Assembly: GCA_017626145.1 (NCBI GenBank)
Contig: JAGAJK010000060.1
Coordinates: 1 to 64,000, forward strand
Origin: Clostridia bacterium
Lineage (GTDB): Bacteria > Bacillota > Clostridia > RGIG6154
Direction of reading: 5' to 3'
DNA: 64,000 nt
The position numbers and the translations under genes are program-made. Below, piece after piece: positions 1 to 15,405 of the stretch. Positions within the stretch are counted from its first letter, which is position 1, and each line of letters opens with the position of its first letter. The notes under the pieces were generated by a model. The model was not told the DNA's origin. It did no database searches and saw nothing but the letters and a program-made list of their open reading frames with translations.

Positions 1-2841
1 AAAAAAACGAGTTTATTGTTAGTTGTAATTTTGTTGCTCAACATTTTGAGTTTTAATGTATTTGCGGGTGATATAGAACACCTGAAATGGTTTTATTCTA
101 TTGATGATGTTGTTTATGAACCAAAGGGTTCAGGTGTTGTAAAAATTAACGATTCAATAATGGTTTCTATAAACGAATTTTGCGGACTTTTAGGATATGT
201 TATTTCGGAGGGAAACGGAAAAGTTACTATAACTGAAGGTAAACCATGTATAAACAATGAAGGAAAAATAAAACAAATTGACTTTGAAGTTGGCAAAAAT
301 ATAATCAAATTAACCGAGAAATCAGGAAAGATTCAACATTTGGAAAGTCTAACAGATGTATCTATCACATACGGTTACGAGAACGAAATATATGTATCGG
401 CAGATGATTTACAGAGAATATTTGATTTAAAGTTTGACAGAAGTTCTTATGATAAAAACGAAATTATAGTATATACACAAAATTACTTGTCAGGCATTGC
501 AAATAACATCAAAACATTTGATGAATTAACAAATTTATCTCAAAAAAACATTGCGGAGATTAGTATTAGAAAACAAGCTGATGAGGTTATAATAACTTCT
601 CCGTTAATTATATCTGATATTGCTGATACAGTTAAAAATTTGCAGCTCCGTCAAAACTATGACTCAGGAGCAGGCGGATGGTTATATTGGGTTAAATTCA
701 AAACTGATACAGGGGAAATTATTGAATATACCGTTTCTACCGGAGAAAGAATTGATGGTATTCAATATCGTGCAATAGATGATACAGAAGTTAGAAATTG
801 CCTTGAACACTATTATAATCTTTACAAAAGTATTAACAGTAGTGAATGGGCAACGGATATTATTGCAGAAGCCGTAAACCTCGGAATTATAAACGAGAAT
901 AACAGTTGGAACTTCCCTTCGTCAATCTGTCGTGAGGATTTTTGCAACATATCAGTTAGAATGATAGAATCTGCCGGAATTATACTTCCCACAGAAAATC
1001 CACAAAGACCTCTCGGTATAAAAGATACAAACAATATAAATGTGCTTAAACTATATAAGGCAGGAGTTATTTTAGGCAAAGAACAACACAAAACAGGTGT
1101 TACATTTGCACCGGGAGATTTTATTACTCGTGAGGAAGCTGCTACGATTCTTGGAAGGATAGCAACATATTTCAAAATTTCTTCAAAGGAAAATATTCCT
1201 TATGCAAATTATAGCGATAGCTCAAGTATTTCTGATTGGGCAAGAGTTGCTGTTAGCACAATGTATCAATTAGGCGTTATGACAGGTGTCAGCGAAACAG
1301 AGTTTTCGCCCAAAGGACTTTATACTGTTGAACAAACAGTTGCAACTATGGTAAGACTTTATAATGTCATAGATAAATCAAAAGCTTTAGATATAATGCA
1401 ACCATTGGGATGTGATGATTATAATGGTCAGGTGTTTATAGACTCATATCCTAAAGCATGGCAAGGCTTTGATTCAAAACCCATTGCATCTTCAAATGGA
1501 TATTTTAATATTCTCCCTGGCAAGTTATTGTACTCTTATGATAGAGAAAATTGGAATTTGCTCTATGAAGATGTTGACGGCGAAAGAGTTTATCACAACT
1601 TGCCTGATGATGTTGATATTGGCGGAGCAAGGTATGCTTGGGAATATAACTGTTTTGTAAATGCCCCGTTTGATGTGAATAAGAGCTATTATTCTTATGA
1701 CAATAAAGAATGGATTAAGGGAAAACCCGAAAGCAAAGAAACTGTAAGTTCAGTTGATTCCATAATAGCAGATATTTTACCGTATGGCATCCCAAAAGAG
1801 TCGGTAATTTATGATTCTGAAAGCGGATTATATCTTGCTTGGCAACCTTATGAAGAAAATGATTATTTTTCAGAACGATATCAAACAACATTAACAGAAG
1901 TTAAGTGTGACACTATTTGGGCATCAGTAGATGCGAAAGAATGGGCAAAAATTACAATTCCTGAGGAAGTTCTGTTTTTCACAAGTGCCGGAATAAACAC
2001 ACAAGCCAAAGCACTTATCATTGATGCTGCGATTAAATTTACAGATGAAGAAAAAGCATTCCTTGATGAAGAAGAAATAAAGGCTAAAAAGTTAAAGCAA
2101 GGCTATGACAAACCGAAATATAAGATTGAAAAATATATCGTTATGCTTTCAAACTTGAGAGATATATTATGTGCTGAATCGAGTGTTGAACAATGTTTCT
2201 TCGCTGAACATATGAGCTTGAGTGATGTTCAGGAACTTCAGAATTTAGTTAATGAAGGTCACATGAGTTGGAGAACTGATGTGGATTTAGTAGTAAAAGC
2301 CTTTATTACAAACAAGACAAGAAAGGATGCAGAAAACGGGAAAATAGTTGAACTTGCAGGCGGTTCTGAAAGGTGTAGTGTGAAATTTGAATTAGACGGA
2401 ACTACATACAGCTTGGAATTGGTAAGACCAATAGATAAAACCGATAACGGTGTTTGGGTTGTAGAAACCTTTGTAAACGAAGCGAATAAAGAAATATTCT
2501 TTTATGAGCCAAGCATCGAAAAGACACCCGTAGAAAAACAAGATGATGGTTGGTATAAGTTTCCTGAAAAGGTTGTAGCATTATTCCCGTTCCCAAGTTT
2601 TGATTATGAAAAGCCAATATCTGTAACTGCTATTTTCACTCCAACGGGAACAGAAACGGATATAATGGCAAAAGAAATTGCTAAAATTGAACCACCTTAT
2701 GTGTATGAAACTATGGCAGAAGTTCTTAATATGGAAATTTCATTGCCATCAGATGCAACACGAGGACATCTGTTCTTCAGATTTGAATTTGAAGATGGCT
2801 CAGTTATGGACTCCCAATATTTCAATGTTTATCAGGAATAA
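1..2841 (+). CDS. Secreted SLH-domain protein, 5' end outside window
   Basis: The frame is open from base 1 (Lys-Lys-Thr-Ser-Leu...), so the start codon lies just upstream; a TTG at 16 is possible but would cut off the charged start of the signal peptide. A hydrophobic stretch ending near VFAG is a signal peptide. Counting from base 16, residues 30-100 resemble a copper-amine-oxidase-N-like stalk domain. Three SLH repeats lie near 275-320, 340-390 and 398-450 (ITREEAATILGR is typical). Residues about 730-825 form a module shared with the next gene, ending in a PIDKTDNGVWVVE motif. SLH repeats bind secondary wall polymers, so this should be a large cell-surface protein. Its function beyond anchoring is unknown. 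It is a longer paralogue of the protein at 8675-10378. Confidence 0.85.
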   Translation, partial: KKTSLLLVVILLLNILSFNVFAGDIEHLKWFYSIDDVVYEPKGSGVVKINDSIMVSINEFCGLLGYVISEGNGKVTITEGKPCINNEGKIKQIDFEVGKNIIKLTEKSGKIQHLESLTDVSITYGYENEIYVSADDLQRIFDLKFDRSSYDKNEIIVYTQNYLSGIANNIKTFDELTNLSQKNIAEISIRKQADEVIITSPLIISDIADTVKNLQLRQNYDSGAGGWLYWVKFKTDTGEIIEYTVSTGERIDGIQYRAIDDTEVRNCLEHYYNLYKSINSSEWATDIIAEAVNLGIINENNSWNFPSSICREDFCNISVRMIESAGIILPTENPQRPLGIKDTNNINVLKLYKAGVILGKEQHKTGVTFAPGDFITREEAATILGRIATYFKISSKENIPYANYSDSSSISDWARVAVSTMYQLGVMTGVSETEFSPKGLYTVEQTVATMVRLYNVIDKSKALDIMQPLGCDDYNGQVFIDSYPKAWQGFDSKPIASSNGYFNILPGKLLYSYDRENWNLLYEDVDGERVYHNLPDDVDIGGARYAWEYNCFVNAPFDVNKSYYSYDNKEWIKGKPESKETVSSVDSIIADILPYGIPKESVIYDSESGLYLAWQPYEENDYFSERYQTTLTEVKCDTIWASVDAKEWAKITIPEEVLFFTSAGINTQAKALIIDAAIKFTDEEKAFLDEEEIKAKKLKQGYDKPKYKIEKYIVMLSNLRDILCAESSVEQCFFAEHMSLSDVQELQNLVNEGHMSWRTDVDLVVKAFITNKTRKDAENGKIVELAGGSERCSVKFELDGTTYSLELVRPIDKTDNGVWVVETFVNEANKEIFFYEPSIEKTPVEKQDDGWYKFPEKVVALFPFPSFDYEKPISVTAIFTPTGTETDIMAKEIAKIEPPYVYETMAEVLNMEISLPSDATRGHLFFRFEFEDGSVMDSQYFNVYQE

Positions 2842-2947
2842 AATTTGAACATAAGTGGTAATTTAATGGGAACAACAGAATGGTTCGTATTGATTGATGG
2901 CACTAATTTACCCGTATGAGTTCACTTGTGAAAGGAGAAATAATTAT

Positions 2948-4255
2948 ATGAAAAAGTTATTATGTTTTATATTGATAATGGTCTTTGGAATGTCATCAGC
3001 GGCTTTTGCCGCTAATGAAGAAAAAACAACAATAAGTTTAAATGAGGGTGAATCAACACAAATTGAAATGCTATATGTCCCTGAATATAGTGGACATTGG
3101 GAATTTACAGTTGATAATCAATGTGATGATACAATAAAATTAAAAATTATAAAAGATTCGCCTACCGGAGAGGCTGTATCCGACAGTATGATAACATTCG
3201 CAGGAGAAAGTAAAACTTTTTCCTGTAAGCCCGGACAAGAGTTAACAGATAAAGTTTATTACATAACAATAACCACAAGCGGAAATTACAATCTTAAAGG
3301 AAAAATTCACTACCGTTTTGTAAATACAGAAAATAGCGATGTAAAACTGTCCGTTGAAGGAAAAGTTAAAAACCTGATTGAACTTGGGATAGTTGAAGGC
3401 GATCTTGATGGTAATTTACGATTGGATGAAAACATAACAAGAGCAGAATTTACAAAGGTTATTTGTAAGGCATTAAATGCAGCTCCAGCTCCAACAAGTG
3501 TTGCACCGTATTTTTCTGATGTTGATGCAAATTTTTGGGCATTCGGTTATATAGAAACTGCAAGAAGATATGGACTTATTAAGGGATATGGTGATGATCC
3601 ATATCATCCAACTTTCAAACCATATAATAACATCACATATTCAGAAAGCTTTAAAATGATTGTTGAAATGTTGGGTTATGGGTTCTTCGCAGTAGATTCA
3701 GGCGGATTTCCTGATGGTTATAAAACAATAGCATTGCGGGATTTACAATTGTTCAATACTGTTGTATCTGATTATTCATCTCCGATTACAAGAGGCGAAC
3801 TTTTTGAAATCGTATATAATGCACTTGATGTACCGATAGTTGAGGTTTATGACAGAGCAAACAGAAACTTCAAAATAATGAATGGTGCTTATGATGATTG
3901 TCCGCTTCTGACACTAAGAATGAAATTATCAGATGTATCTGATGTTTATATTTCTGTTCCTGAGAAGATGACATTGGCACAGGCAGAGAGTTTACAAAGA
4001 TTAGTGAATTACGGTTATGAACAATGGCGTAAAAATCCTGAATTGGTAGCAAAAAATTTCGTTAGCGATTATTTTTCATCTAATTGGAATAATCCCGAAA
4101 TAATATCGTTGCATGATGATGGAGAAAAGTTTACTTACATGTTACAATCGGGAAAAATGATATGTACCATAGAACTGTTTAAGCCTGTTGATAAAACGGA
4201 AAACGGAATATGGGTTGTGGAAAGTATTGTTAACATATTTGAAGAAATGAATTAA
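2948..4255 (+). CDS. Secreted SLH-domain protein
   Basis: 435 residues. The ATG at 2948 follows GAAAGGAG and gives a clean signal peptide (MKKLLCF... ending SAAFAA); an in-frame ATG 54 bases upstream lacks this. Residues 20-130 form an all-beta N-terminal domain like a bacterial pre-peptidase C-terminal fold. SLH repeats lie near 137-178 (ELGIVEGDLDGN), 188-240 and, more degenerate, 248-295. Residues 328-435 repeat the C-terminal module of the upstream protein: SL..LQ.LVN.G...WR followed by KPVDKTENGIWVVES. It is same-strand with the whole cluster. Role inferred: wall-anchored surface protein; ligand unknown. Confidence 0.85.
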   Translation: MKKLLCFILIMVFGMSSAAFAANEEKTTISLNEGESTQIEMLYVPEYSGHWEFTVDNQCDDTIKLKIIKDSPTGEAVSDSMITFAGESKTFSCKPGQELTDKVYYITITTSGNYNLKGKIHYRFVNTENSDVKLSVEGKVKNLIELGIVEGDLDGNLRLDENITRAEFTKVICKALNAAPAPTSVAPYFSDVDANFWAFGYIETARRYGLIKGYGDDPYHPTFKPYNNITYSESFKMIVEMLGYGFFAVDSGGFPDGYKTIALRDLQLFNTVVSDYSSPITRGELFEIVYNALDVPIVEVYDRANRNFKIMNGAYDDCPLLTLRMKLSDVSDVYISVPEKMTLAQAESLQRLVNYGYEQWRKNPELVAKNFVSDYFSSNWNNPEIISLHDDGEKFTYMLQSGKMICTIELFKPVDKTENGIWVVESIVNIFEEMN

Positions 4256-4302
4256 GCATATAGAAGGAATTTAAGTAGATTAAATGATTGGAGGATGAGA
4301 TT

Positions 4303-5415
4303 ATGAAAAAAATAATATCATTAGTGTTAGTAGGAATTATGATGCTTTCGAGCATAAGTGTATTTGCGGAAGATATATCTTCCGGTGTATTTGGAACAGA
4401 ATATTTAGAAGGTGCAAAGGAACTTGAATTCACTTGGAATATAACAGAAAGCAGTTATTGGGAACTCTATGCTTACAATCATAGTGAAGAAAGCATGAAA
4501 ATTATAATTAACATAGGAACAAGAGATATACATAAACTTGAAGTTGCACCGAAACAGACTGCTGAAATATATGCCGAAGAAAAATTTAACAAAGGTACAT
4601 ATACAATTAAAGCAGTTTCATTAGGTGAAGAAAATCTCTGCGGAAAACTCTCATATCAAATTACAAATAACAAAGATAACCTTCAGAGAAAAGCACCTGA
4701 AAGTTTAACGGATATGAGTGGCGTAACAGGTAATTTTAATAATACACCAATTGTTGTTTATAGAGAGAACGAAATTGCAAAAATAAATACCGAAAAAGTT
4801 CTTCCTGATAGAATTATTGAATTAAAGCCTGCTCCTGCAACTGCTGCAGTAAATGAACTTTTTGAATATGGAATAATGAAGGGCGATCCTGATGGAAACC
4901 CAAGACCTACCGATGAAATTACAAGAGCTGAAGCAGTTGCTTTACTCGTAAGAACAAATGCAAACTACAACGATATTTTGAAAGATTATCTATATAGACC
5001 TGTTTTCGATGATGTTGGAAATCATTGGGCAGCAAGAGAAATTTCATTTGCATACGATAATGGATTAGTAGAAGGCACAAGCGAAACTACATTTGAGCCT
5101 GAAAGAAAAGTTACCATTCAGGAATTTGTCAAAATGATTGTTACTCTTTTGGGATATAAAGAAAGAGCAGAACAACAAGGCGGCTTCCCTCACGGTTATA
5201 TTATGACAGCAACTTCTCTTGGCTTAATGGATAATCTTAATAAGGAAACTACAAAAAATGCTTTTCGTGAAGATGTTGCATTGATGATTGCAAATTCTCT
5301 TGATGTACCTCTTATGAAACAATCAGGTTTTGGTGCTAATACTGAATATATCGTAATGGATGGTAAAAATGGTGTTGCACTCGAAACCTTCAGGACAATT
5401 TTAGAAGCAAAATAA
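4303..5415 (+). CDS. Secreted SLH-domain protein
   Basis: 370 residues from an ATG at 4303 preceded by TTGGAGGA; a TTG at 4288 is in frame but lies on the Shine-Dalgarno itself. Signal peptide ends near SVFAED. An N-terminal beta domain (25-115) resembles those of the flanking proteins. SLH repeats lie near 182-220 (GDPDGNPRPTDEITRAEA) and 235-287 (DVGNHWAAREISFAYDNGLV), with a degenerate third at 297-340. The tail with GFGANTEYIVMDGKNG is nearly repeated in the next SLH protein (GFGANAEYAIADGKNN), which shows the two are recent duplicates. It is probably a non-catalytic surface protein. Confidence 0.85.
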   Translation: MKKIISLVLVGIMMLSSISVFAEDISSGVFGTEYLEGAKELEFTWNITESSYWELYAYNHSEESMKIIINIGTRDIHKLEVAPKQTAEIYAEEKFNKGTYTIKAVSLGEENLCGKLSYQITNNKDNLQRKAPESLTDMSGVTGNFNNTPIVVYRENEIAKINTEKVLPDRIIELKPAPATAAVNELFEYGIMKGDPDGNPRPTDEITRAEAVALLVRTNANYNDILKDYLYRPVFDDVGNHWAAREISFAYDNGLVEGTSETTFEPERKVTIQEFVKMIVTLLGYKERAEQQGGFPHGYIMTATSLGLMDNLNKETTKNAFREDVALMIANSLDVPLMKQSGFGANTEYIVMDGKNGVALETFRTILEAK

Positions 5416-5439
5416 TTTTACGGAGTATGATGATTAAAA

Positions 5440-5592
5440 ATGGAACAAGCTTGGTCCGTATGGATAAACGAGAATAAAAAAGTTATAACAATTAAGGAAT
5501 CACCAAATGCAAAACAAATATTCTTTGAAAACAAAGAAATCGGTATGCAGAAAGTTACCGAGTTTGTTTCTAAAGGATATAAAATAGGATGA
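5440..5592 (+). CDS. Small 50-residue protein of unknown function
   Basis: ATG at 5440 to TGA at 5592, between two SLH genes. It begins MEQAWSVWINE and ends VTEFVSKGYKIG. It has no signal peptide or membrane segment, so it would be cytosolic unlike its neighbours. Upstream, CGGAGT at about 5421 is far for a Shine-Dalgarno; an overlapping 16-codon ORF begins at 5427 in another frame. Evidence that it is real: the last 12 codons and stop reappear, with substitutions mostly conservative in protein sequence, after the next SLH gene (6967-7005). Its length and composition recall short uncharacterised proteins of Clostridia, but I cannot name a family. Confidence 0.5.
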   Translation: MEQAWSVWINENKKVITIKESPNAKQIFFENKEIGMQKVTEFVSKGYKIG

Positions 5593-5610
5593 TTTTAAGG
5601 AGGAAATATT

Positions 5611-6963
5611 ATGAGCAAATTAAGAAAAATTATGGCAATGGTATTAAGTTGTATGATGCTTTTATCTGTTATTAGCATTACGGCTATGGCTGATGACGGT
5701 CAATGGACAACAGTAGAACTTGATGGAACAAAAAAAGTAGTTGAAATTGAATGGAATTTGGAACAAGATATGTGGCATTGGTTTGAGATAATCAACAAAG
5801 GCGAAGATGAAATTAAGTTCGCAGTTATAGGAACCAAAGACCAAGTTTTACCTGAAGGTGTTGCATCACCGGGAATTGGAATGGGGATTGGCAGTAAAGG
5901 CGGTTCTAAACCATTATCTGCAGGAAAATATACCGTAAAAATAGAATCACTCGGTAAAAATAATCTAAAAGGTATTTTCAAGTATAAATTGTCAGCAATT
6001 GCACCAACAGATAGTGATAAAATAATAATTGTTGAACCGGCTAAACCGATGTTAGTTTACGATAATACCTCACTTGAAAAGGCACCGGTTGAACACATAT
6101 TGACATTTGCTGCAAATCCCGATACCGAAATTATGTATGAGTTGCAAAAATATGGTATTATCGAAGGCGATCCTAACGGAGATTTCAGACCTTATACAAC
6201 AATCACAAGAGCAGAAATGGCAAAAGTGCTTTGCAAAGTATTAGGACTTCCTAAAATGGATAATGGTAAATCTGCTTTTTCAGATATGACTTCAGCACAT
6301 TGGGCATATGGTTATATTGAAGCTGCTTATGCTTCAGGACTTATTGACGGAAATGAAGATGGCACATTTGCTCCTGATAACGATGTGAAATTTAGTGAAG
6401 CAGTAAAAATGATTGTAACTGCACTCGGATATAAACCTATGGCTGAACAAAGAGGTGGATTCCCTCATGGTTATGCACAGATAGCTTCTCAAAATGGAAT
6501 TACAAAAGATATTGACCATGCTTTAGATGTTCCTTGCAATAGAAATATTGTATTTAAGATGTTACATAATGCTCTTGATGTGCCAAGAATGATTCAAACA
6601 GGCTTTGGTGCAAATGCAGAATATGCAATAGCAGATGGTAAAAATAATACACCATACCAAACCCTTCGTTCTTTGATTACCGGCACGGAAATAATTCCGG
6701 GGCAAAATTATGACAAAGAATACTTAGATGAACTCAATAAGTTTATGGAAGGTGGCGAATACTACGATGAAATTGCTGCCGAGCTTGAGGAATTTTGGAA
6801 GCCTGAAGGATTCAACGGAACATATACTTTTGAAATTGTTTATGCGGAACTAAATAGTGATGCAACAAATATTTCGCTGAAAGTAAAAATTATCCCTGAT
6901 AATGGCGAAGTTTGTTATGTGCATCTTGGATACGCAAAAGTTGACGGTAAATGGAAATTCTAA
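5611..6963 (+). CDS. Secreted SLH-domain protein with C-terminal extension
   Basis: 450 residues, ATG at 5611 after AAGGAGGA. Signal peptide ends near ITAMADD. N-terminal beta domain to about 130. SLH repeats lie at 175-213 (GDPNGDFRPYTTITRAEM), 224-275 (SAHWAYGYIEAAYASGLI) and a degenerate one at 285-330. It is a paralogue of the 4303-5415 protein up to the shared GFGANAEY tail near residue 330. It then adds about 100 residues (350-450; acidic helix, then a beta-rich end with GYAKVDGKWKF) that the paralogue lacks. That ending resembles small alpha+beta lipoprotein-type domains, but I do not assign one. Confidence 0.85.
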   Translation: MSKLRKIMAMVLSCMMLLSVISITAMADDGQWTTVELDGTKKVVEIEWNLEQDMWHWFEIINKGEDEIKFAVIGTKDQVLPEGVASPGIGMGIGSKGGSKPLSAGKYTVKIESLGKNNLKGIFKYKLSAIAPTDSDKIIIVEPAKPMLVYDNTSLEKAPVEHILTFAANPDTEIMYELQKYGIIEGDPNGDFRPYTTITRAEMAKVLCKVLGLPKMDNGKSAFSDMTSAHWAYGYIEAAYASGLIDGNEDGTFAPDNDVKFSEAVKMIVTALGYKPMAEQRGGFPHGYAQIASQNGITKDIDHALDVPCNRNIVFKMLHNALDVPRMIQTGFGANAEYAIADGKNNTPYQTLRSLITGTEIIPGQNYDKEYLDELNKFMEGGEYYDEIAAELEEFWKPEGFNGTYTFEIVYAELNSDATNISLKVKIIPDNGEVCYVHLGYAKVDGKWKF

Positions 6964-6966
6964 TTT

Positions 6967-7005
6967 GTTGCCAAGTTCATTTCTAAAGGGTACAAAATAG
7001 GATAA
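6967..7005 (+). pseudogene. Relic of the 50-residue ORF 3' end
   Basis: Thirteen codons, reading VAKFISKGYKIG then stop, directly follow the SLH gene stop. They match the last twelve residues (VTEFVSKGYKIG) and stop position of the small ORF at 5440-5592. No start codon or upstream part remains. The simplest reading is that an SLH gene plus its small downstream ORF was duplicated and the second small ORF was then lost, possibly when the SLH gene gained its C-terminal extension. Confidence 0.6.
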
Positions 7006-7010
7006 ATATA

Positions 7011-7048
7011 AAATTGGCACCCTTTAATTTTTGAAGGGTGTCAATTTG
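7011..7048 (+). terminator. Stem-loop after SLH gene
   Basis: AAATTGGCACCCTT and AAGGGTGTCAATTT pair across a short T-rich loop, with one G-T pair. No U-run follows, so termination may be partial or the hairpin may mainly protect the 3' end. Confidence 0.6.
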
Positions 7049-7173
7049 CATATAATGGTATTTATTCAAGTAGCAACAATTACGATAGGTATTTTCATTT
7101 GCTATGCCGATTGAAAGAAAAGCCATTATCTGATATAATATTTTATAAGGAAAATCACCGGAGGTATTTGCCG

Positions 7174-7665
7174 ATGAAAAAGAAAATATTTAAAACAACT
7201 GCTATTATTCTATTTGTTGTTTTAATATGTATGCAACTTGGTTCAATCTATAAAACTAATGAGCAACAACATAGAATCAACTATGAGTTTATGAATAATT
7301 ACACAAATTTAATACTAACCTTACTCAATAAGACAGAAGCTCTTGATGCAAAAGATATGCATAAATGGGATATAGACAATACAAAGTACGGATATACTTT
7401 GACAAAATTGTATCCTCATATATCATATTACAAGGACGGAAATGTTAGTGCCATTATAGATACAATAGATTATGTTTCAGGGTGTGATGCGGTGTATGAA
7501 ATAAACTTTTCAAAAGAATTATATGACACGCTAAAAGAATTTGGACAACATCTTTTTGAGGATACTTGTACGGAAGAAATTGCTAAAACAACTTGGAAAG
7601 CGTTAGAAAAATCAGTTGATTTTAAAAAGGTAAAACAAACAAAGAGTTATATTACCGAAGATTAA
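7174..7665 (+). CDS. Membrane-anchored small extracellular protein
   Basis: 163 residues. The ATG at 7174 is preceded by GGAGGT; a longer frame from 7099 would hide the membrane segment. Residues 1-25 are a signal-anchor (KKKIFKTTAIILFVVLICMQLG), followed by a soluble, helical domain. There is no lipobox Cys and no SLH repeat. It lies 12 bases before the next gene, so the two are probably cotranscribed. Function unrecognised. Confidence 0.7.
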   Translation: MKKKIFKTTAIILFVVLICMQLGSIYKTNEQQHRINYEFMNNYTNLILTLLNKTEALDAKDMHKWDIDNTKYGYTLTKLYPHISYYKDGNVSAIIDTIDYVSGCDAVYEINFSKELYDTLKEFGQHLFEDTCTEEIAKTTWKALEKSVDFKKVKQTKSYITED

Positions 7666-7677
7666 GGAGGTAGCACA

Positions 7678-8670
7678 ATGAAAAAGTTAATATGTTTATT
7701 GGGTGTTTTTGTGATTACACTTACAATGTCTATATCAGTTTTTGCGGGGGATGTTCCTGAAGGATTGTTATATGAAGATAATGCAAAAGTTTTTCTTGGT
7801 ACTGTCGCAAACTATACAACAAAAGATATTCCATCAGCTCCATATACCATAATTGATACAGTTGAAGTTATTCCTACTGAGAAAATTAAGGGTGATGTTG
7901 AAATTGGAGTTAAAGAAACTTATTCAAGATGTCATAGTTCATTAGAACTCAAGTCAGACACGGAATATTTGTTTGGATATTTTGATGAGAACAATTTCTA
8001 CATATATGAAATAGAGTCAAGAAACGACGGGCGATTTAAGTTGGTCGGTTCGGACGATTATGATATGACAATGAGATTTGAGGAATATCTTAATGACGGT
8101 TTATATGCTGATGCAGAAAAGGAACGCAGCACGATTGGTCTTGAAGTAACACTTTCTGAATATATGGAAGCTGAAATTGATATAGCTGAAAAGGTTACTT
8201 TTAATATCGGCGGCAATAGGTATGAGATTGACAAGGATGCGTTTTTTAAGTTGGCAGATGAAATTAAGGTTGAAAATGTAAAGAATGATGCTTTAAAGCA
8301 ACCGGATACCGGAGATAATTCTTGGCAGGAAAATATGATTTTTATAACAGTTGATCTCAAGGAAGGACATACAGTTTATAAAGGTGAATTTCCCTTTGCT
8401 ATGGCAGCTATTTCAAAATACGGAGAAGTGAGCCATAATGCGTTGGAAATGAGCTTGCTTCCGTCAAAAGACTATCAAATGGAAATTGAAGATGTTGCAA
8501 AATTATATAAGCTTCTCCCTCTTGAAGTAAGTGAAAAATATGTAGAACCTACTGTTGAAGAAAAAACTGAACTCAATAATAGAAATAATGTAATTGTCGG
8601 AGTTTCAGTTTCTATACTTGTTATTGGCTTAATTGGATATTTTGTATTCAAGAAAAAAACAAGGAGGTAA
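7678..8670 (+). CDS. Type I membrane protein, secreted N-terminal domain
   Basis: 330 residues after AAGGAGGT. A signal peptide ends near SVFAGD. The ectodomain first has a beta-rich part (25-110; a conserved-looking SRCHSSLELKSDTEYLFGYF segment suggests a netrin/TIMP-like OB fold, unproven) and then a second domain. A single C-terminal membrane helix (about 305-325, VIVGVSVSILVIGLIGYFVF) is followed by KKKTRR, a stop-transfer pattern. The stop overlaps the Shine-Dalgarno region of the next SLH gene, suggesting translational coupling. Function unknown. Confidence 0.75.
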   Translation: MKKLICLLGVFVITLTMSISVFAGDVPEGLLYEDNAKVFLGTVANYTTKDIPSAPYTIIDTVEVIPTEKIKGDVEIGVKETYSRCHSSLELKSDTEYLFGYFDENNFYIYEIESRNDGRFKLVGSDDYDMTMRFEEYLNDGLYADAEKERSTIGLEVTLSEYMEAEIDIAEKVTFNIGGNRYEIDKDAFFKLADEIKVENVKNDALKQPDTGDNSWQENMIFITVDLKEGHTVYKGEFPFAMAAISKYGEVSHNALEMSLLPSKDYQMEIEDVAKLYKLLPLEVSEKYVEPTVEEKTELNNRNNVIVGVSVSILVIGLIGYFVFKKKTRR

Positions 8671-8674
8671 TGAT

Positions 8675-10378
8675 ATGAAACGGATATTATCTATTATTTT
8701 ATCGGTTATTATAATCCTTTCAACGGCAGTAGTTGTGTTTGCTGAAGAACCGAAGGGTGACGGAACTCCACCAAGATATTATACTTTTGAAGAACTTACC
8801 GGACTATCAAGAGAGGATGTTGACCACATAGTTATCAGAAGCGGTGTTGATGGTGTTGGATATTCAACTGCTTATGATAAAATTATAACCGACATATATA
8901 ATTTCATAAATACAAAATCTTTTTTAACCTATCCTCTTGAGGATGTCAGAGATGGTTGGAAATATGCAATTATGTTCTTTGACAAAAACAATAATACATC
9001 AACCTATACAATTTCATCAGGTATAATAGTTCCCGGTAAAGATGGATTTATGTTTAAAACCGTAAATGAGGGAGCTTTAGAAATTGCCGTAGAAAAAGCT
9101 TATAAGCAGATGGCTTTAAACTGCACAAATTGGGCATCCGATTATATAATCGAAGCAAATGATTTGGGTATTACGGAAGATTTAGCTGATTTAGAATATA
9201 AAAAGCCTATTACCCGTGAGAAGTTCTGTGAAATGATTTATAATATGCTTGATAAATCAATGACAGTTGAGTGGAAAAAAGTTTCTCCTAACCCATTCAG
9301 AGATACGGTTAATGAAAGAGTTTTTTCACTTTGTTTAGAAGGAATAATTGAAGGGAAAGGCGAAAATACATTCGCTCCTGATGACTTTCTTACTCGTGAA
9401 GAAGCTGCAACAATTCTAATACGCACGGCACAGTTTATGGGTATTGGTATGCCTGAAAATGCTTATGATAGCAAAGTTTATGATGATGAAAACAAAATTT
9501 CCGATTGGGCATTTGCATCTGTGCATTATTGCCGCAAATTGGGTGTAATGATAGGAACAAGCGAAACAGAGTTTTCTCCCCAAGATGAATATACCGCAGA
9601 GCAAGCAATAGCAACGATATTGAGATTGTATGAAAAGTCGAAGTGTAAAATCGAAAAGGCTGTTCTGAAACTTGTCGATAAGGATTGCAATATTATCTTG
9701 ACCGAAAAGGATGTTATCGAGTGCAGAAGATATGAATTTAGTCCACAAAGTAGTGGTCCGGCGGTTATGGTTCAGGCGATAGATGTTTATATTACAGATG
9801 AAGGTAGAGAAAATCTAAAAATGGCAACCAAAAAGATTGCTAAATATTCTACCGATGAAAATTACATTTCTGTTTTGATTGATGACGAAGAAATATATAA
9901 AATGAGTGTATATGATGAGCTTGATTCAAATGTATTTAGAATTGGAAGTCTTGGTATAATGCAGATGAATTATGTTGCACAAAAAATTAACTATTCACTT
10001 AAAGAAGAGCAAAGGAACGTGCAAACAAAAGCTTTCTTTAGCGGTAAAGAGAATACATTTGAGATAGGATTTATTGTTGAGAATGAAAATAACCTTCCTA
10101 TTTCTTTTAAAAGCAATACAAGTGATTTTATAGACATAGAGATATATAACTCAAATGGAGAAAAGATTAGTTTGGAACAAAATTCTCTTTCAGTATTAAG
10201 CGAAGAAATAATTGAGAAAAGAGGAATGATTTTTGAGGAATATCCAAAGGATAAATTGCTTAAAGGTTCATACAAGGCGGTTATAAAATGGAATTGTCAA
10301 GCTGCCATTGACAAAGGAAACGGAGAGTTTGAGAGAATCCATCTTATTGACCGTGAAATTCAATTTGAAATCAAATAA
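8675..10378 (+). CDS. Secreted SLH-domain protein
   Basis: 567 residues. The ATG at 8675 follows AAGGAGGT, which lies in the last codons of the preceding gene. Signal peptide ends near VVFAEE. Residues 28-140 match the domain before the SLH repeats of the first protein in the window (TFEELTGLSREDVDHIVIRS here, TFDELTNLSQKNIAEISIRK there). SLH repeats lie near 152-196, 207-253 (APDDFLTREEAATILIR) and 269-320. The C-terminal 120 residues are beta-rich with a GTFEIG/LPISF-like pattern that resembles BsuPI-type domains; this is tentative. A wall-anchored paralogue with a different C-terminus. Confidence 0.85.
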   Translation: MKRILSIILSVIIILSTAVVVFAEEPKGDGTPPRYYTFEELTGLSREDVDHIVIRSGVDGVGYSTAYDKIITDIYNFINTKSFLTYPLEDVRDGWKYAIMFFDKNNNTSTYTISSGIIVPGKDGFMFKTVNEGALEIAVEKAYKQMALNCTNWASDYIIEANDLGITEDLADLEYKKPITREKFCEMIYNMLDKSMTVEWKKVSPNPFRDTVNERVFSLCLEGIIEGKGENTFAPDDFLTREEAATILIRTAQFMGIGMPENAYDSKVYDDENKISDWAFASVHYCRKLGVMIGTSETEFSPQDEYTAEQAIATILRLYEKSKCKIEKAVLKLVDKDCNIILTEKDVIECRRYEFSPQSSGPAVMVQAIDVYITDEGRENLKMATKKIAKYSTDENYISVLIDDEEIYKMSVYDELDSNVFRIGSLGIMQMNYVAQKINYSLKEEQRNVQTKAFFSGKENTFEIGFIVENENNLPISFKSNTSDFIDIEIYNSNGEKISLEQNSLSVLSEEIIEKRGMIFEEYPKDKLLKGSYKAVIKWNCQAAIDKGNGEFERIHLIDREIQFEIK

Positions 10379-10390
10379 AGAGGTGCTTGT

Positions 10391-11119
10391 ATGAAGAAAT
10401 ATATATACTTAATAATCTCTTTGCTTATCGTTGTTGTTGTGTCAGGAATTATATATTTTCAAAATCATAAAGAGGATAACACGATTATTTCTTCAGGTTC
10501 GGTAATGTGTTCTGCTCAACAATTTATAAACTCAAGAAAAGATGGTGTGTGGTTAGAAATAACACTTGACAATGAAAAGCACACGAAGAAAAAACTTGCC
10601 ATAAAAGATGAAAATGTAATCAAAAAGTTAAACGATAATCCTATTGAATATGTTATTGGGGTTAATCTTAAAGCAGCAATTCCTGACAAAGCACTTGAAG
10701 GAAAAGCTGATTATTACATAAAAGATTCCATACAACTTTTAATTGATTATGATGATTATGACAAGTATTTTGAGATAGTAGATGTTTCGTTTGGTGAAGC
10801 ACCTGATGTTGTTAAAACATACGATGCAACTCCCGAAGATAAAATAACTGAATATATCAAAAACGGAGAACTTTGTTATTCTTCTACTCACTATGAAATG
10901 AGTGATGGAACATGGAAAGTTAAAGAACTTCCATATACTTACAAATACAGATTAGAACTTACGGGAAGATTGCATAATGCCGTAAAAGATTCTACTTACA
11001 TTATTTTGAGCAACAGAAACGATATTACTTTTGAACAAGCTTGGAAAGCAAGCGGACTTAGTAGTAATACAGAAGATTACTTTGATGCAAAAGATGCTAT
11101 TATAGTCGGACAAAAATAA
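10391..11119 (+). CDS. Membrane-anchored or secreted hypothetical protein
   Basis: 242 residues, ATG after AGAGGTG, 12 bases behind the SLH gene. An N-terminal hydrophobic helix (residues 4-22) anchors or exports it. The C-terminal half has a distinctive run: DGTWK, YKYRLELTGRLHNA, STYIILSN and FEQAWKASGLSSN. I believe this pattern is seen in other secreted proteins of gut Clostridia, but I cannot name the family. Last gene of the SLH cluster, followed by a strong terminator. Confidence 0.7.
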   Translation: MKKYIYLIISLLIVVVVSGIIYFQNHKEDNTIISSGSVMCSAQQFINSRKDGVWLEITLDNEKHTKKKLAIKDENVIKKLNDNPIEYVIGVNLKAAIPDKALEGKADYYIKDSIQLLIDYDDYDKYFEIVDVSFGEAPDVVKTYDATPEDKITEYIKNGELCYSSTHYEMSDGTWKVKELPYTYKYRLELTGRLHNAVKDSTYIILSNRNDITFEQAWKASGLSSNTEDYFDAKDAIIVGQK

Positions 11120-11125
11120 ATATAC

Positions 11126-11165
11126 TAAGCCTATCATTTTTTGGAGTGATAGGCTTTTTTCATTA
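11126..11165 (+). terminator. Intrinsic terminator ending the SLH cluster
   Basis: AAGCCTATCA pairs with TGATAGGCTT and runs into a T tract. It lies seven bases after the last gene of the cluster. Confidence 0.9.
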
Positions 11166-11236
11166 AAATAATGCTTTAGTTATGCAGATAAAGTCAATTT
11201 TATTACAAAAATCGTTCGACAAGATACTTTTCCATT

Positions 11237-11270
11237 ATACAGAATACCTTATTGCATTCTGTATTTTTTT
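11237..11270 (+). terminator. Orphan intrinsic terminator
   Basis: ATACAGAAT pairs with ATTCTGTAT across a ten-base loop and is followed by seven T. No gene ends immediately before it; it is a second stop behind the cluster terminator, or the tail of an unrecognised short transcript. Confidence 0.65.
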
Positions 11271-11456
11271 GTATCTATTTGTATTATTCTTTATTTTTAT
11301 AAGATAATTGCTCAAAATCAGACGATAAAAACTTCAAATCACATTCCAATTTTCGACAGACTTCTTTATCGAAAAATGGTACAATTCAGCTATATAAGAA
11401 GATAACGGTCAATATTATTGTAATGCTGATAAAAAGAGAAGAACGGAGTGGGTTTT
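11271..11456. other. AT-rich intergenic stretch, possible promoter
   Basis: No gene seen. TGGTACAAT at 11377-11385 fits an extended -10 element, with no convincing -35. It would drive the leader-ORF chain starting at 11457. The rest of the spacer between 11166 and 11456 carries nothing recognisable apart from the terminator at 11237-11270. Confidence 0.35.
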
Positions 11457-11522
11457 ATGATTTATCTGTTACATTATAAGTTAATACATAGAATGTTAAA
11501 GAAAACCGCTTGGGGTTGTTAA
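11457..11522 (+). CDS. 21-codon leader peptide upstream of attenuator
   Basis: ATG at 11457 has a well-spaced GGAG at 11445-11448. The peptide is MIYLLHYKLIHRMLKKTAWGC. Its last codons form the left arm of a terminator hairpin and its TAA lies in the loop, the geometry of a leader peptide that couples ribosome position to termination. No homologue recognised. Confidence 0.5.
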   Translation: MIYLLHYKLIHRMLKKTAWGC

Positions 11523-11545
11523 GGACCTCAAGCGGTTTCTTTTTA
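11503..11545 (+). terminator. Attenuator-type terminator overlapping leader ORF
   Basis: AAACCGCTTGGGGT and ACCTCAAGCGGTTT form a 14-pair stem (one G-T) with an eight-base loop, followed by TCTTTTT. The left arm is coding sequence of the 21-codon ORF. Confidence 0.8.
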
Positions 11546-11613
11546 TGCGAAATTTAACGATAATTATTTTTTTTAATCGACTATTGTCAAAATTTGGAAA
11601 TGAGGTGAAAGAA

Positions 11614-11700
11614 ATGTTCATTGATGCTGAAGAATGTTACGGACAATCATCACAAATAAATACTAAAGTTTTTGGCGTGGCAATTTCGCCCGCATTTTAG
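11614..11700 (+). CDS. 28-codon leader peptide
   Basis: ATG at 11614 follows GAGGTG with normal spacing. The peptide is MFIDAEECYGQS... ending AISPAF. The stop codon is seven bases before a hairpin that hides the Shine-Dalgarno of the next short ORF, so a terminating ribosome would melt the left arm. Short leader peptides upstream of regulated genes are known for erm, cat and tet(M) systems; no identity with those is claimed. Confidence 0.5.
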   Translation: MFIDAEECYGQSSQINTKVFGVAISPAF

Positions 11701-11706
11701 GTTCAA

Positions 11707-11748
11707 TTCGCTCCTTTCAACGGCGGATTGCCGTGCGGTAGGAGTGAA
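11707..11748 (+). promoter_or_regulatory. Hairpin sequestering a Shine-Dalgarno site
   Basis: TTCGCTCCT (11707-11715) pairs with AGGAGTGAA (11740-11748), with an inner ACGGC/GCCGT stem. AGGAG of the ORF starting at 11751 is in the right arm, so this ORF should be translated only when the hairpin is opened. Confidence 0.6.
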
Positions 11749-11750
11749 AT

Positions 11751-11957
11751 ATGCTTTATTTAGTCATCCCAATTTTTACAAATCAAAGAATCATTGCTCA
11801 TAATAGGACAAGCCATAAGAAGTCATCTGATGACGATTATGGAGGTCACTCATACCGTGCAGCCAAAACATCACTCTCTTATAGGGTGTGTTTTGGCTGT
11901 TTTGTTTCCTATGCAGTAATTGAATATCATTGCCGAGAGCCTCCGTACTCCAATTAA
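11751..11957 (+). CDS. 68-codon ORF spanning a terminator hairpin
   Basis: ATG at 11751 has AGGAG at 11740-11744, inside a hairpin. It encodes 68 residues (MLYLVIPIFTNQ...; His, Tyr, Ser and Arg rich) of no recognised family. The middle of the ORF is a perfect 11-pair terminator stem, and its stop lies in the left arm of another hairpin. The arrangement suggests a regulatory ORF whose translation matters more than its product. It could also be chance coding in a structured leader. Confidence 0.4.
   Translation: MLYLVIPIFTNQRIIAHNRTSHKKSSDDDYGGHSYRAAKTSLSYRVCFGCFVSYAVIEYHCREPPYSN
11860..11904 (+). terminator. Intrinsic terminator inside leader region
   Basis: CAGCCAAAACA pairs exactly with TGTTTTGGCTG, the stem can extend inward, and TTTTGTTT follows. 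Ribosomes translating the 68-codon ORF would prevent it forming. Confidence 0.75.
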
Positions 11958-11978
11958 ATTTAACAAAAATTTGATTGG
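11950..11978 (+). promoter_or_regulatory. Hairpin overlapping stop codon and next Shine-Dalgarno
   Basis: CCAATTAAATTT (11950-11961) pairs with AAATTTGATTGG (11967-11978), one T-G pair. The TAA of the 68-codon ORF lies in the left arm and the start of the GGAGG (11977-11981) for the next short ORF in the right arm. Confidence 0.5.
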
Positions 11979-11989
11979 AGGATGTTCGA

Positions 11990-12082
11990 ATGAAAAAAAC
12001 TTTAATTATTTTTTCTAATGTAAAGGTTTCCTTGACATTAGACGTGTATTATAAAAGCCGAGAAAGGGGGTGTCGGCTGTGA
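11990..12082 (+). CDS. 30-codon ORF overlapping the HTH gene start
   Basis: ATG at 11990 follows GGAGG by eight bases. The 30-residue product begins MKKTLIIFSNVKVSL. Its TGA (12080-12082) overlaps the GTG start of the HTH gene at 12079, a classic translational-coupling junction. No family recognised. Confidence 0.5.
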   Translation: MKKTLIIFSNVKVSLTLDVYYKSRERGCRL

Positions 12083-12417
12083 AAGAAAAACTAACTACAT
12101 ATGAAAGACGAGAAAATATCAAGTTGTTCTTAATTAAAGAAAAGGCTACAACTGCTCTTAGATTGTCTTTTATGTTCGATGTTTCAAGACAAACAATTAT
12201 GAATGATATTGTTTTTCTCAGCAGTCGATTGCCCATAATCACCACCAAAGGAACCGGTGGAGGTATTTTTCTCAATTCGGATTTTGATGGTCCTAAAGAG
12301 TATTTAAACTCTGAAGAAGAACAGTTATTATTGAAGTTATGTGAAAAAGTAACATCTAAAGATAAGATGATTCTTTCTAACATAATTAACAAATTTTCTG
12401 TTCCTAAGGACAAATGA
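12079..12417 (+). CDS. Small DeoR/HTH_11-type transcriptional regulator
   Basis: 112 residues from GTG at 12079, with AAAGGGGG at 12063-12070; a GTG at 12070 is too close to that site. Residues 4-55 are a winged helix-turn-helix of the HTH_11/DeoR type (TTYERRENIKLFLI, then FDVSRQTIMNDIVFLSSRLP), followed by a TKGTGGGIFL wing. There is no effector (WYL or sugar-phosphate) domain, so the protein is short for DeoR. I know compact HTH proteins of this type in Firmicutes integrative elements and take it as element-borne. It probably binds DNA near its own leader or element genes; target unknown. Confidence 0.65.
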   Translation: MKEKLTTYERRENIKLFLIKEKATTALRLSFMFDVSRQTIMNDIVFLSSRLPIITTKGTGGGIFLNSDFDGPKEYLNSEEEQLLLKLCEKVTSKDKMILSNIINKFSVPKDK

Positions 12418-12959
12418 AATCTTTTTGTGAACCTTGAAAAAGAAAGCGTGCAAGATAACGGCATTGCAGTATATGAGCATACGGATACATTCCGATAAAT
12501 TTGAGCCGGGCAATGGGTACGCCATGACGATTTTATCAAACAACCTTCATTTACCTTCTTTCTAAAGGTTGAAAATCTGAGCGAGAAATATCTGCATTGT
12601 AAAAGAGGGTTGCTCCCTTGTGGCAAAGATGGTTTATCGGCATAATGATACTTCTGCTTAGTTACAGTCCGAGCGTTAAAAGCGTCGCAGGCAATAAGAG
12701 CAGTCCGGGCGGTGCCGGGAAGGTGAAACTCCTATGGAGCAGTTACGCAAGCTGACATCCGTTTTTGCTTTAATTATTTGTATGGTTTGATGGTATTAAA
12801 AAAGGGATCGGTATGCATAGTCCCCCTAAAAATACAAATATAGGTATGTGTGCACCTGTTACTTTGTTGTATTGTGTATTGGTCCCTTTCTTAATGCTAT
12901 CAAATCGGAATATTACAAACTACGATACACATAAAATGAAGAAAGGACGGTGTTGCTTT
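12418..12959. other. No identified gene; G+C-richer, possibly structured or decayed segment
   Basis: Between the HTH gene and the short ORF at 12960 I see no supported gene. 12600-12765 is visibly richer in G+C than its surroundings and holds small inverted repeats (CTCC-tat-GGAG near 12730). Short open stretches occur in different frames (for example 12650-12757, ending KVKLLWSSYAS) but without consistent Shine-Dalgarno sites. It may be decayed element genes, a transfer origin or a structured RNA; none can be chosen from sequence alone. Confidence 0.3.
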
Positions 12960-13133
12960 GTGGATGATAAGTATGTTGTGACTTGTGAAGATGATAATAT
13001 CCAAAATGATAAAGAATTTATTCTTAACATTCAGAAGGCAATGCTTGTTACTTTGTTTGAAAGTAAAAAAATAAACCACTTTCAATACGAATACGCAATA
13101 GAATTGCTTGAAAAAAATTTTAGAAAGAAGTAA
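12960..13133 (+). CDS. Short SHOCT-like protein upstream of integrase
   Basis: 57 residues from GTG at 12960, with GAAAGGACGG about ten bases upstream. The frame is open from 12813, but the upstream part reads as non-coding. The C-terminal half (NIQKAMLVTLFESKKINHFQYEYAIELLEKNF) has the SHOCT-type pattern of a helix, a short 'K.I...QYE.A' turn and a second helix. Short ORFs like this often sit just before large serine recombinases in Firmicutes elements. Function unknown; possibly helps control of the recombinase. Confidence 0.55.
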   Translation: MDDKYVVTCEDDNIQNDKEFILNIQKAMLVTLFESKKINHFQYEYAIELLEKNFRKK

Positions 13134-13191
13134 TTTTTTTGCGAATATTCAAAGCAGATGGTAAAATTTTATTGAAAGGAGTTGGTTTATA

Positions 13192-14805
13192 ATGCTAAAT
13201 GTAGCAGCATATTGTCGAGTTTCAACCGACAAAGACGATCAGGCAAACAGTTTTGAAAGTCAAAAGTTGTATTTTGAGGAATATATAAAAAGAAATCCTG
13301 AATGGGAACTTTATGAAATCTATGCAGATGAAGGCTTGACGGGTACAAGTACAAAAAAGAGAAAAGCTTTCAATAAAATGATTGCAGATGCACACTTAGG
13401 AAAATTTGACCTGATTATCACAAAAGAAGTAAGCAGATTCGCAAGAAACACCGTAGATACTCTGCAATATACAAGAGAATTAAAATCTCTAAATATTGGT
13501 GTTTACTTTGCTCTTGATAATATCGACACTCTTGCACCGGACGGAGAATTAAGACTTACAATCATGGCTTCGTTGGCTCAGGAAGAAAGCAGAAAAACAT
13601 CTGAACGAGTTAAATGGGGACAAAAGCGACAAATGGAAAAAGGTGTTGTATTCGGACGAGATATGCTTGGATATGATGTTGTAAATGGTGTTCTGCATAT
13701 CAATGAAGATGGAGCAGAGATTGTAAGATTGATATTTCATAAGTTTGCAATAGAGAAAAAAGGTACATACACCATAGCAAGAGAACTTCGTGAAGCAGGA
13801 TATAAAACTATAACGGGAAATGCAATATGGACAAATACTGTTATTCTGAAGGTTCTGAGGAACGAAAAGTATTGTGGTGACCTTATTCAAAAGAAAACTT
13901 TTACGCCTGATTTTCTTACACATCAAAAAAAATACAATCGTGGTGAAGAAGATTTTGTTGTGTTAAGGGACCATCACGAGCCTATTGTTTCAAGAGAACT
14001 TTGGGATATGGCACAATATGAACTTGATAAACGCTCACCGTCTGAAGAAATCAAATTAAGACATAGTAATCGTTATCCACTATCGGGAAAAATAGAATGT
14101 GGTTGTTGTGGAAACAGATTTGTGTCAAGAACAAAAAAAAGAAAAGACGGAAGCAGATATAAAGCTTGGCGATGCTATGAAGCAGCACAACATGGCTTGC
14201 CGAAAGTTGATGCTGCAGGGAATCAAATCGGATGTAATGTTAATTCTCAAATTCGTGATGAAGATTTTATGCTTGCGATTCAGAAAGTTATTGAAAATTT
14301 GAAAGCAAACAGAAAAGTAATTTTAGATGGAGTCCTTGAAGTCTTAAAAATTGTATTCGATGCAGGAGAAAGCAAACAACTTGATGAAGATGCAATCAAA
14401 AAGAGAATTGAGAATCTTACATCTAAATCGGAAAGATTGCTTGACTTGTATTTGAGTGAGGATTTGACAAAAGAACAATATCGGCAAAAGAAAGAGAGCT
14501 ACGAAAAAGAGATTGCGGAGTTAAATTACTCTTTAACACAAAGCAATAAGGAGAAATACAACTCATACGATAGCGAACAGATAATTGCCGATGTGAAAGA
14601 ATATCTGTCAGATTTACTCTATGCAAGAAAGCAAGACGATATTTTTTATAAAACAATCATTGAAAAGATTGTAGTTTATGATAGAAAGCATTTTGATGTT
14701 TATTTAAATTTGCTCCCACACAGATGGAAAGTAGTGCTAAATTCAGCGTTAGAGCCGAATGACCTGTGTGGGAGCATTAAACACACGACATACCAATATC
14801 GGTGA
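13192..14805 (+). CDS. Large serine recombinase (site-specific integrase)
   Basis: 537 residues, ATG after AAAGGAG. The N-terminal resolvase domain (2-150) holds YCRVSTD with the nucleophile Ser11, plus the Arg-rich SRFARN motif. A recombinase domain (160-280) and a zinc ribbon (C.CCG...C, near 303-345) follow, then a coiled coil (about 400-460) typical of large serine integrases. It inserts or excises DNA by cutting both strands at a short core. Its gene ends at the right edge of the element: the last four codons and TGA lie in cotJC sequence. No tyrosine recombinase or excisionase is visible. Confidence 0.93.
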   Translation: MLNVAAYCRVSTDKDDQANSFESQKLYFEEYIKRNPEWELYEIYADEGLTGTSTKKRKAFNKMIADAHLGKFDLIITKEVSRFARNTVDTLQYTRELKSLNIGVYFALDNIDTLAPDGELRLTIMASLAQEESRKTSERVKWGQKRQMEKGVVFGRDMLGYDVVNGVLHINEDGAEIVRLIFHKFAIEKKGTYTIARELREAGYKTITGNAIWTNTVILKVLRNEKYCGDLIQKKTFTPDFLTHQKKYNRGEEDFVVLRDHHEPIVSRELWDMAQYELDKRSPSEEIKLRHSNRYPLSGKIECGCCGNRFVSRTKKRKDGSRYKAWRCYEAAQHGLPKVDAAGNQIGCNVNSQIRDEDFMLAIQKVIENLKANRKVILDGVLEVLKIVFDAGESKQLDEDAIKKRIENLTSKSERLLDLYLSEDLTKEQYRQKKESYEKEIAELNYSLTQSNKEKYNSYDSEQIIADVKEYLSDLLYARKQDDIFYKTIIEKIVVYDRKHFDVYLNLLPHRWKVVLNSALEPNDLCGSIKHTTYQYR

Positions 14806-14977
14806 GAAGAGCTCTCATAGAACTTTTCGGCATAGCGAAACGCTGTGAAAGGTAACGAAGAGAGGCACCAAGTTCTCCATTCGGTCCACCATATTGCGTA
14901 ATGATTAATTTTGCCATTCTTGGGTCGGGATTTTTAATATTTACAGGGTATTCGAGATTTTTTTGGTAATTCCACAT
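14777..14977 (-). pseudogene. cotJC: cotJC, N-terminal fragment interrupted by element
   Basis: CotJC is a manganese-catalase-like spore coat protein of about 190 residues. Here residues 1-62 are intact (MWNYQKNLEYPV, DPRMAKLIITQYGGPNGEL, RYLSQRF, RALLTDIG). The family then continues with a metal-binding Glu-rich stretch (TEELAH...), but this frame reads MSCV and stops at the edge of the serine-recombinase element. The start has AGGAGTG upstream and is 20 bases behind cotJB. The missing part is not on this strand anywhere in the window. If the element excises, the gene could be restored; if not, it is dead. See findings. Confidence 0.85.
14785..14799. other. Element/cotJC junction (attachment site half)
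   Basis: cotJC homology stops after the Gly codon at 14792-14794 (complement), so the crossover core of the serine recombinase lies at about 14790-14795. Only one junction is in the window, so the exact core dinucleotide cannot be set. Confidence 0.6.
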
Positions 14978-14996: not shown

Positions 14997-15245
14997 TTAA
15001 TTATACATATTTTCCCATGGCCATGGACCTGAGATCCAGTGCCAGTTAGATGTGTCTGGAGAACCAGGAAATAATTGATGACCATTTTTTTCTATCATTT
15101 TTACTAGCTCATCGTATTCTTTTTTCATTTCTGTATATTCTTTGATTGCTTCTGAGTCGTTAGGATGAGTATCGAGGTATAAATTCAGATCTATCATATA
15201 AAATTGTACAGCCATTAACTGACATAAATAGTTATTATTTGCCAT
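14997..15245 (-). CDS. cotJB: Spore coat protein CotJB
   Basis: 82 residues. It has the CotJB pattern: LYLDTHPNDSEAIKEY followed by a Tyr/Trp/Pro-rich end (HWISGPWPWENMYN). In Bacillus subtilis, CotJB is part of the cotJABC operon, made in the mother cell under sigma-E and assembled into the coat. Its start overlaps the end of cotJA by 11 bases, which argues for coupled translation. cotJC follows after 19 bases but is interrupted. Confidence 0.85.
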   Translation of the reverse strand: MANNNYLCQLMAVQFYMIDLNLYLDTHPNDSEAIKEYTEMKKEYDELVKMIEKNGHQLFPGSPDTSNWHWISGPWPWENMYN

Positions 15246-15405
15246 TTTTCTTCCACCTTCCTACATAAGGCATATCAAGTTTAGGGTATATTGTTCCCGC
15301 TTTTAAGGCATCCATTGGTTCATATGTGTCTTCATTGTAGTTTTGATAGACTACAAATGCCGTTGCATAAGGAAGCATATTTGATAAATTTGTTTCATTT
15401 TTCAT
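15235..15405 (-). CDS. cotJA: Spore coat associated protein CotJA
   Basis: 56 residues, too short for many gene finders. ATG at 15405 follows AAGGAGTC. The sequence MKNETNLSNMLPYATAFVVY, then YEPMDALKAGTIYPKLDMPY, matches the CotJA signature (Y.P..AL..GT.FP.L..PY). First gene of the cotJ operon, overlapping cotJB. CotJA is needed in B. subtilis for CotJC assembly into the coat. Confidence 0.8.
   Translation of the reverse strand: MKNETNLSNMLPYATAFVVYQNYNEDTYEPMDALKAGTIYPKLDMPYVGRWKKNGK

Follow-up and report, generated by a model that had tools for sequence, protein, structure and literature searches.

The window that we analyzed (64,000 nucleotides) is the start of contig C32 (C32:1) of a genome of 2.78 Mb in 98 contigs. 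It carries a cotJ operon in which cotJC is cut at codon 62 (window 14793/14794, minus strand), at the point where an element bearing a large serine recombinase (LSR) gene ends (Table 1). The preliminary description of this DNA had reported intact cotJA and cotJB genes, and both were confirmed, cotJB by Pfam CotJB and cotJA by hand reading. It had also placed the end of cotJC after LLTDIG, in agreement with the Pfam Mn_catalase match, which covers positions 1-63 only. The open reading frame listed at 14777-14977 ends in MSCV*; its last four residues belong to the element, and what derives from cotJC stops at the core GG (14793-14794). Finally, the break had been said to coincide with the end of the LSR gene, and indeed the stop codon of that gene lies inside cotJC (window 14773-14805). 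The last residues of the LSR therefore differ between the integrated and the circular form.

Table 1. Features of the interrupted cotJ operon and of the element within it (window coordinates unless a contig is named)
Feature	Position	Strand	Remarks
Window portion of intervening element	1..14792		Several S-layer-homology-domain proteins and an HTH_11 protein; runs past contig end
HTH_11-type DNA-binding protein of element	12070..12417	+	Similar HTH ORFs upstream of LSR in L007, L009
Sigma-E-like promoter	12908..12937	+	GAATATT-N15-CATAAAAT; immediately upstream of the small ORF's ribosome-binding site
Small ORF, candidate recombination directionality factor (RDF)	12960..13133	+	GTG start, 57 aa; predicted two-helix hairpin
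Large serine recombinase	13192..14805	+	537 aa; Pfam resolvase, recombinase and Zn-ribbon domains; catalytic motif YCRVS; PHROG 95 integrase
Attachment junction (attL or attR)	14773..14812		Right arm TATGTCGTGTGTTTAATGCT pairs with left arm AGCATTAGGCACACGATGTA from C60, core GG between
cotJC 5' part, Mn-catalase-type spore coat protein	14793..14977	-	Codons 1-62; Pfam Mn_catalase positions 1-63; junction aligned with 12 other loci
cotJB, intact	14997..15245	-	Pfam CotJB
cotJA, intact	15235..15405	-	56 aa; read from sequence by hand
Other end of element	C60:1-3967		Rep-like (DUF6017), ParA and ParB genes

The rest of cotJC was retrieved by a genome search on another contig of the same genome. 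The match (C60:3959-4354) is open to the natural stop, and the 3' part itself (C60:3968-4354) is an intact open frame of 132 residues with no stop, exactly the continuation by TEELAH and about 130 more residues that had been predicted. The preliminary description had made a reversible interruption depend on the existence of such a 3' part, which is present in the same genome and in the right frame. Cutting at the break positions (window 14793-14794 and C60:3968-3969) and joining at the common GG gives CTC ACC GAT ATT GG|C ACC GAA GAA CTG, that is, LLTDIG|TEELAH in frame. The joined CotJC is a full-length protein of 189 residues ending in KKYH, and its residues 4-184 match Mn catalases of known structure. 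A second Mn catalase, an intact paralogue separate from cotJC, is encoded on C22.

When the two ends of the element are joined, they form an imperfect palindrome, AGCATTAGGCACACGATGTA|GG|TATGTCGTGTGTTTAATGCT, as is typical for LSR attP sites. Because of this common core and these palindromic arms, the C60 end can be tied to the window end despite the assembly gap. The window starts at a contig end and so misses the left end of the element; the window part and the C60 part together give the element a size of at least 18.8 kb. PHROG hits in ten element proteins were S-layer-repeat matches and replication/partition genes only, with no phage structural genes among them, the middle of the element being unassembled. 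With regard to an integrative conjugative element, C60 supplies the Rep-like DUF6017, ParA and ParB genes, with the same gap in the assembly.

We found several of the characteristics by which intervening elements of sporulation genes are recognized: a split gene that can be joined in frame, an LSR beside the junction, a short core with arms, and sporulation sigma factors in the host. Indeed, sigK (C53) and sigE (C50) are intact and score above the family cut-offs in this genome, which also encodes spoIVA (C60:16137-17612) and spoIIID (C97).

The small ORF upstream of the LSR gene is a constant companion of this recombinase family. Homologues of 57 to 70 residues stand ahead of the LSR in 73 of 77 loci, and further upstream in two more. 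AlphaFold2 modeled the protein as a two-helix hairpin (mean pLDDT, 89.7), while family searches gave no match and fold and sequence searches against known RDFs returned nonspecific helical hairpins only. Just before the small ORF, the larger subfamily has a TTATATG-N15-CATA(C/T)ATT-like sequence. A strict two-box sigma-E-like pattern directly preceded the small ORF at 47 of 75 loci versus 0.2 expected (maximum of 2 in 200 shuffles), the loci in this and the other locus counts being related and hence not independent. The pattern was missing from all 19 further LSRs scored in these genomes and related ones.

As a positive control for sigma-E, the upstream regions of the cotJ operons showed no enrichment (strict motif in 3 of 98 versus 2 expected), and we therefore trained a sigma-E matrix on the upstream regions of spoIIID and spoIVA, which are sigma-E genes in model species. 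With flat spacing, 63 of 74 loci scored above 95% of the null and 31 above 99% (control tiles, 1/57). With the learned spacing of 14, 6 of 74 exceeded 99% of the null, most LSR operons having a spacing of 15. Since the matrix result depends on spacing and the cotJ upstream regions do not score, sigma-E is the best reading of the promoter motif but not a proven one. Sigma-K and sigma-G readings, judged by eye, fitted less well. A TACAA sequence directly follows the -35 box in the window (12908-12937) and in its homologues and is conserved across subfamilies. A SpoIIID site was considered here, but the match to the published consensus is partial.

To see how widely cotJC is interrupted, we took the closest 80 relatives of the window LSR from one-per-species genomes and scanned their loci with a CotJC profile. 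Pieces of cotJC were present in 74 of the 80 loci, and in 68 the LSR directly abuts a cotJC half, with the 5' half within 300 bp of the LSR 3' end in 66 and the 3' half in 2. Both pieces flanking the codon-62 break lie on one contig in 12 loci, 3.0 to 10.1 kb apart. The in-frame join at the common GG core was obtained for the window and 12 other loci; in L044 the joined frame runs only as far as the next break, near codon ~137, and in L085 the join requires the later of two possible cores. Some members of the family depart from the usual arrangement. In L011 (255-4887) and L074 (9860-12043), the orientation is reversed, the LSR lying on the cotJC strand and ending in the 3' half. In L034 (11422-11521) and L057 (11542-11642), the element ends at a GATATAGG-like site with no adjacent cotJC, that is, at a secondary attachment site.

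A second sample comprised 60 relatives, most of them from different families of the class Clostridia. We found a split cotJC in about 15 of these 60 genomes, including the single-contig genomes G029 and G041, which amounts to roughly a third of the cotJC-bearing genomes sampled. In those split-cotJC regions that were fetched, LSR genes adjoin the cotJC pieces. A short catalase piece in G024 was rejected as a split cotJC; it is a Mn-catalase paralogue with a deletion.

The break codons cluster at 31 (GG|PDGE), 62 (DIG|TEELAH) and 137 (MAA|EQKAR), and a single possible case lies at 178. These sites coincide with what we take to be the metal-ligand motifs of Mn catalases. The LSRs group by site into at least four divergent families: the window family at codon 62, a second family near 62 that is 23-27% identical to it, and others at 31 and 137. 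The break at codon ~137 comes with its own LSR family (L044:6868-7299 and 5210-6793, L252:2055-2495, L253:1988-2290), the LSR being 63% identical between two genomes. Some genes are interrupted twice. We found cotJC in three pieces, with breaks at codons 31 and ~62, in L011, L015, L042, L052, L058, L060, L080, G004 and G029, some of them with pieces off the fetched contig, and with breaks at codons 62 and 137 in L044. In L063 (1007-1546), the cotJC 3' half diverges past QRFGE (codon ~178), where a fourth insertion site or a frameshift is possible.

The smallest elements (~3 to 4.5 kb) keep the promoter, the small ORF and the LSR and are without visible transfer genes. Beyond this excision module they hold little apart from a gene of toxin-antitoxin type, which is ParE in L039 and, in L085, an AbiEii pair; L052 has a gene of PemK/MazF type. 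A gene of this type would penalize loss of the element from the germ line.

We then compared the age of the elements with that of their target. In comparisons of hosts with saturated cotJC 5' halves, the LSR genes differ at only 1 to 10% of synonymous sites, and the window LSR protein is identical to that of L047, whose MAG and cotJC are both different (pN 0.000, pS 0.038). Near-identical LSRs thus occur beside diverged cotJC genes, and therefore the family spreads horizontally into the same site. Because the insertions are recent, intact halves alone are no proof of function or of selection for rejoining, and the intact cotJC halves may just reflect young insertions. The LSR is under strong selection (pN/pS about 0.1), which, to judge from this ratio, shows a gene in use and not a role in sporulation. 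We rejected dN/dS as proof of cotJC function, as the LSRs are much younger than cotJC and few pairs have a vertically shared insertion.

We propose that the cotJC elements are probably regulated intervening elements of the skin, SPbeta and gin type that are excised in the mother cell. Both halves of the gene, their in-frame join, the attP-like ends, the conserved operon with its promoter motif, the sporulation genes of the host and the recurrence are seen directly, and from them we infer use of the promoter, the RDF function of the small protein, and excision with its timing. The cotJC codons of the Mn-ligand motif (DIG|TEELAH) would serve as the attachment site. During growth, and also in the forespore, the element would stay in place and cotJC would remain split. 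The conserved promoter would be used by sigma-E in the mother cell to transcribe both the small ORF and the LSR; the small protein would act as the directionality factor, and the LSR would recombine both ends at the GG core. The element would then leave as a circle, restoring full-length cotJC. Because rejoining would occur in a cell that dies anyway, neither host nor element would suffer a heritable loss. When we searched for excised circles, the attP pattern of the subfamily was absent from 391 genomes and both attP patterns tried were absent from viral contigs, absence from assemblies being weak evidence in either case. Going one step further, we lean slightly towards seeing cotJC as a developmental hot spot, where several unrelated LSR families would have come to occupy three or four positions, all at its best-conserved codons (those for the Mn ligands), and a gene in two or three pieces would be rebuilt only in the mother cell. 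In the minimal elements, a toxin-antitoxin module would then accompany the sigma-E-driven RDF-LSR operon and prevent germ-line loss.

The preliminary description had offered a reversible interruption as a reasonable hypothesis, with a dead insertion as the alternative, and as far as can be read from sequence, the recurrence, the attP-like ends, the conserved small ORF and the sigma-E-like promoter support the reversible reading. If the insertion were dead, cotJC would be a tolerated, dispensable target, lost for as long as the element is present, and excision would occur only when the element moves. The elements are indeed recent and mobile, and the C22 paralogue could cover for CotJC. Moreover, loss of CotJC is reported to be mild in B. 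subtilis, and C. difficile cotCB/cotD mutants lose catalase activity with no marked coat defect (both discussed in PMC12122855, PMC11222575). However, vegetative transfer would hardly call for a sigma-E-like promoter ahead of the small ORF and LSR, several unrelated LSR families converge on this one sporulation gene, and genes already split once were split again with their pieces still open. We thus regard a dead insertion as unlikely; what probability it retains comes from the dispensability of cotJC elsewhere and from our finding no excised junction.

A developmentally neutral element, whose excision would be induced by the SOS response or by conjugation, seems less likely still. The Rep-, ParA- and ParB-like genes of the window element do resemble those of an integrative plasmid or conjugative element, and the sigma-E-like motif would then be fortuitous or belong to another regulator, whose site could be the conserved TACAA beside the -35 box. 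Yet divergent subfamilies, whose flanks differ, have the motif in the same position ahead of the small ORF, and the other LSRs of these genomes are without it; the promoter, small ORF and LSR are also what the smallest elements retain when no transfer genes are visible. It is hardly credible that the split is an artefact, a chimera of binned contigs with the halves on different contigs. Both pieces do lie close to contig ends in an assembly of 98 contigs, but the two element ends have a common core and palindromic arms, and the same split occurs on single contigs in 12 loci and in G029 and G041, each a single-contig genome.

Excision in the mother cell, the reading that we favor, has precedents. 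In C. difficile skin, which interrupts sigK, the RDF CD1234 is controlled by sigma-E and SpoIIID, and the LSR CD1231 has its own sigma-A promoter (PMC5025042). Like skin, the cotJC element is an LSR element in a mother-cell gene, with a small protein behind a sigma-E-type promoter and a predicted in-frame restoration on excision. Unlike skin, it targets a coat catalase instead of a sigma factor, and one shared promoter serves the LSR and the small ORF immediately ahead of it. The SPbeta prophage in B. subtilis spsM (SprA/SprB), whose 58-aa SprB has a mother-cell promoter, similarly combines an LSR, an accessory protein of 57 to 58 residues, a mother-cell promoter (here a sigma-E-like motif) and an interrupted spore-envelope gene (PMC4191935). 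However, the cotJC element is no phage as far as seen, and the window LSR is only weakly similar to SprA (SprA structure chains, E 4.7e-13). Like gin in B. cereus gerE (GirC/GirX), it is a non-phage element in a sporulation gene (PMC5595907), but gin spans 28.6 kb and has three recombinases in one strain, whereas cotJC elements go down to 3 kb and occur in many genera. Another clostridial intervening element of a sporulation gene, yin in C. botulinum yabG, also carries an LSR and a putative RDF; unlike the cotJC elements, it is a prophage, reported from a single strain, and its promoter may be of the SigK type (PMC10747680). Convergence of unrelated LSRs on one conserved gene, e.g., prolyl isomerase, is described by Durrant et al. 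2022, whose main text mentions neither cotJC nor catalase; we found no proposal of developmental regulation there (PMC10083194). In the main texts of the open-licence literature, we found no report of an interrupted cotJC, nor of an integrase, a prophage or an excision event at this gene.

Spore formers have so far provided a handful of cases in which genes are rearranged in a developmentally programmed way. If our reading holds, it would be routine in gut Clostridia, with roughly a third of the sampled cotJC-bearing genomes split and some genes in three pieces. This would explain the broken-looking spore-coat genes of many gut genomes and an undercounting by genome-based sporulation prediction, and a gene needed only in a dying cell would be a low-cost niche for mobile elements. 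The family also supplies compact pairs of LSR and candidate RDF with defined attachment sites, and its carriers include cultured, non-pathogenic bacteria such as Parablautia muri D42-62 (L038) and Lachnospiraceae bacterium A2 (L017).

Two further observations concern other loci. The window genome (G000) has several other large serine recombinase genes, on C1, C10, C13, C21, C46, C66 and C88. In G052, spoIIID looks split, with pieces 21 kb apart (C3:213672-213809 and 234409-234549, family positions 34-79 and 1-47), perhaps by another intervening element.
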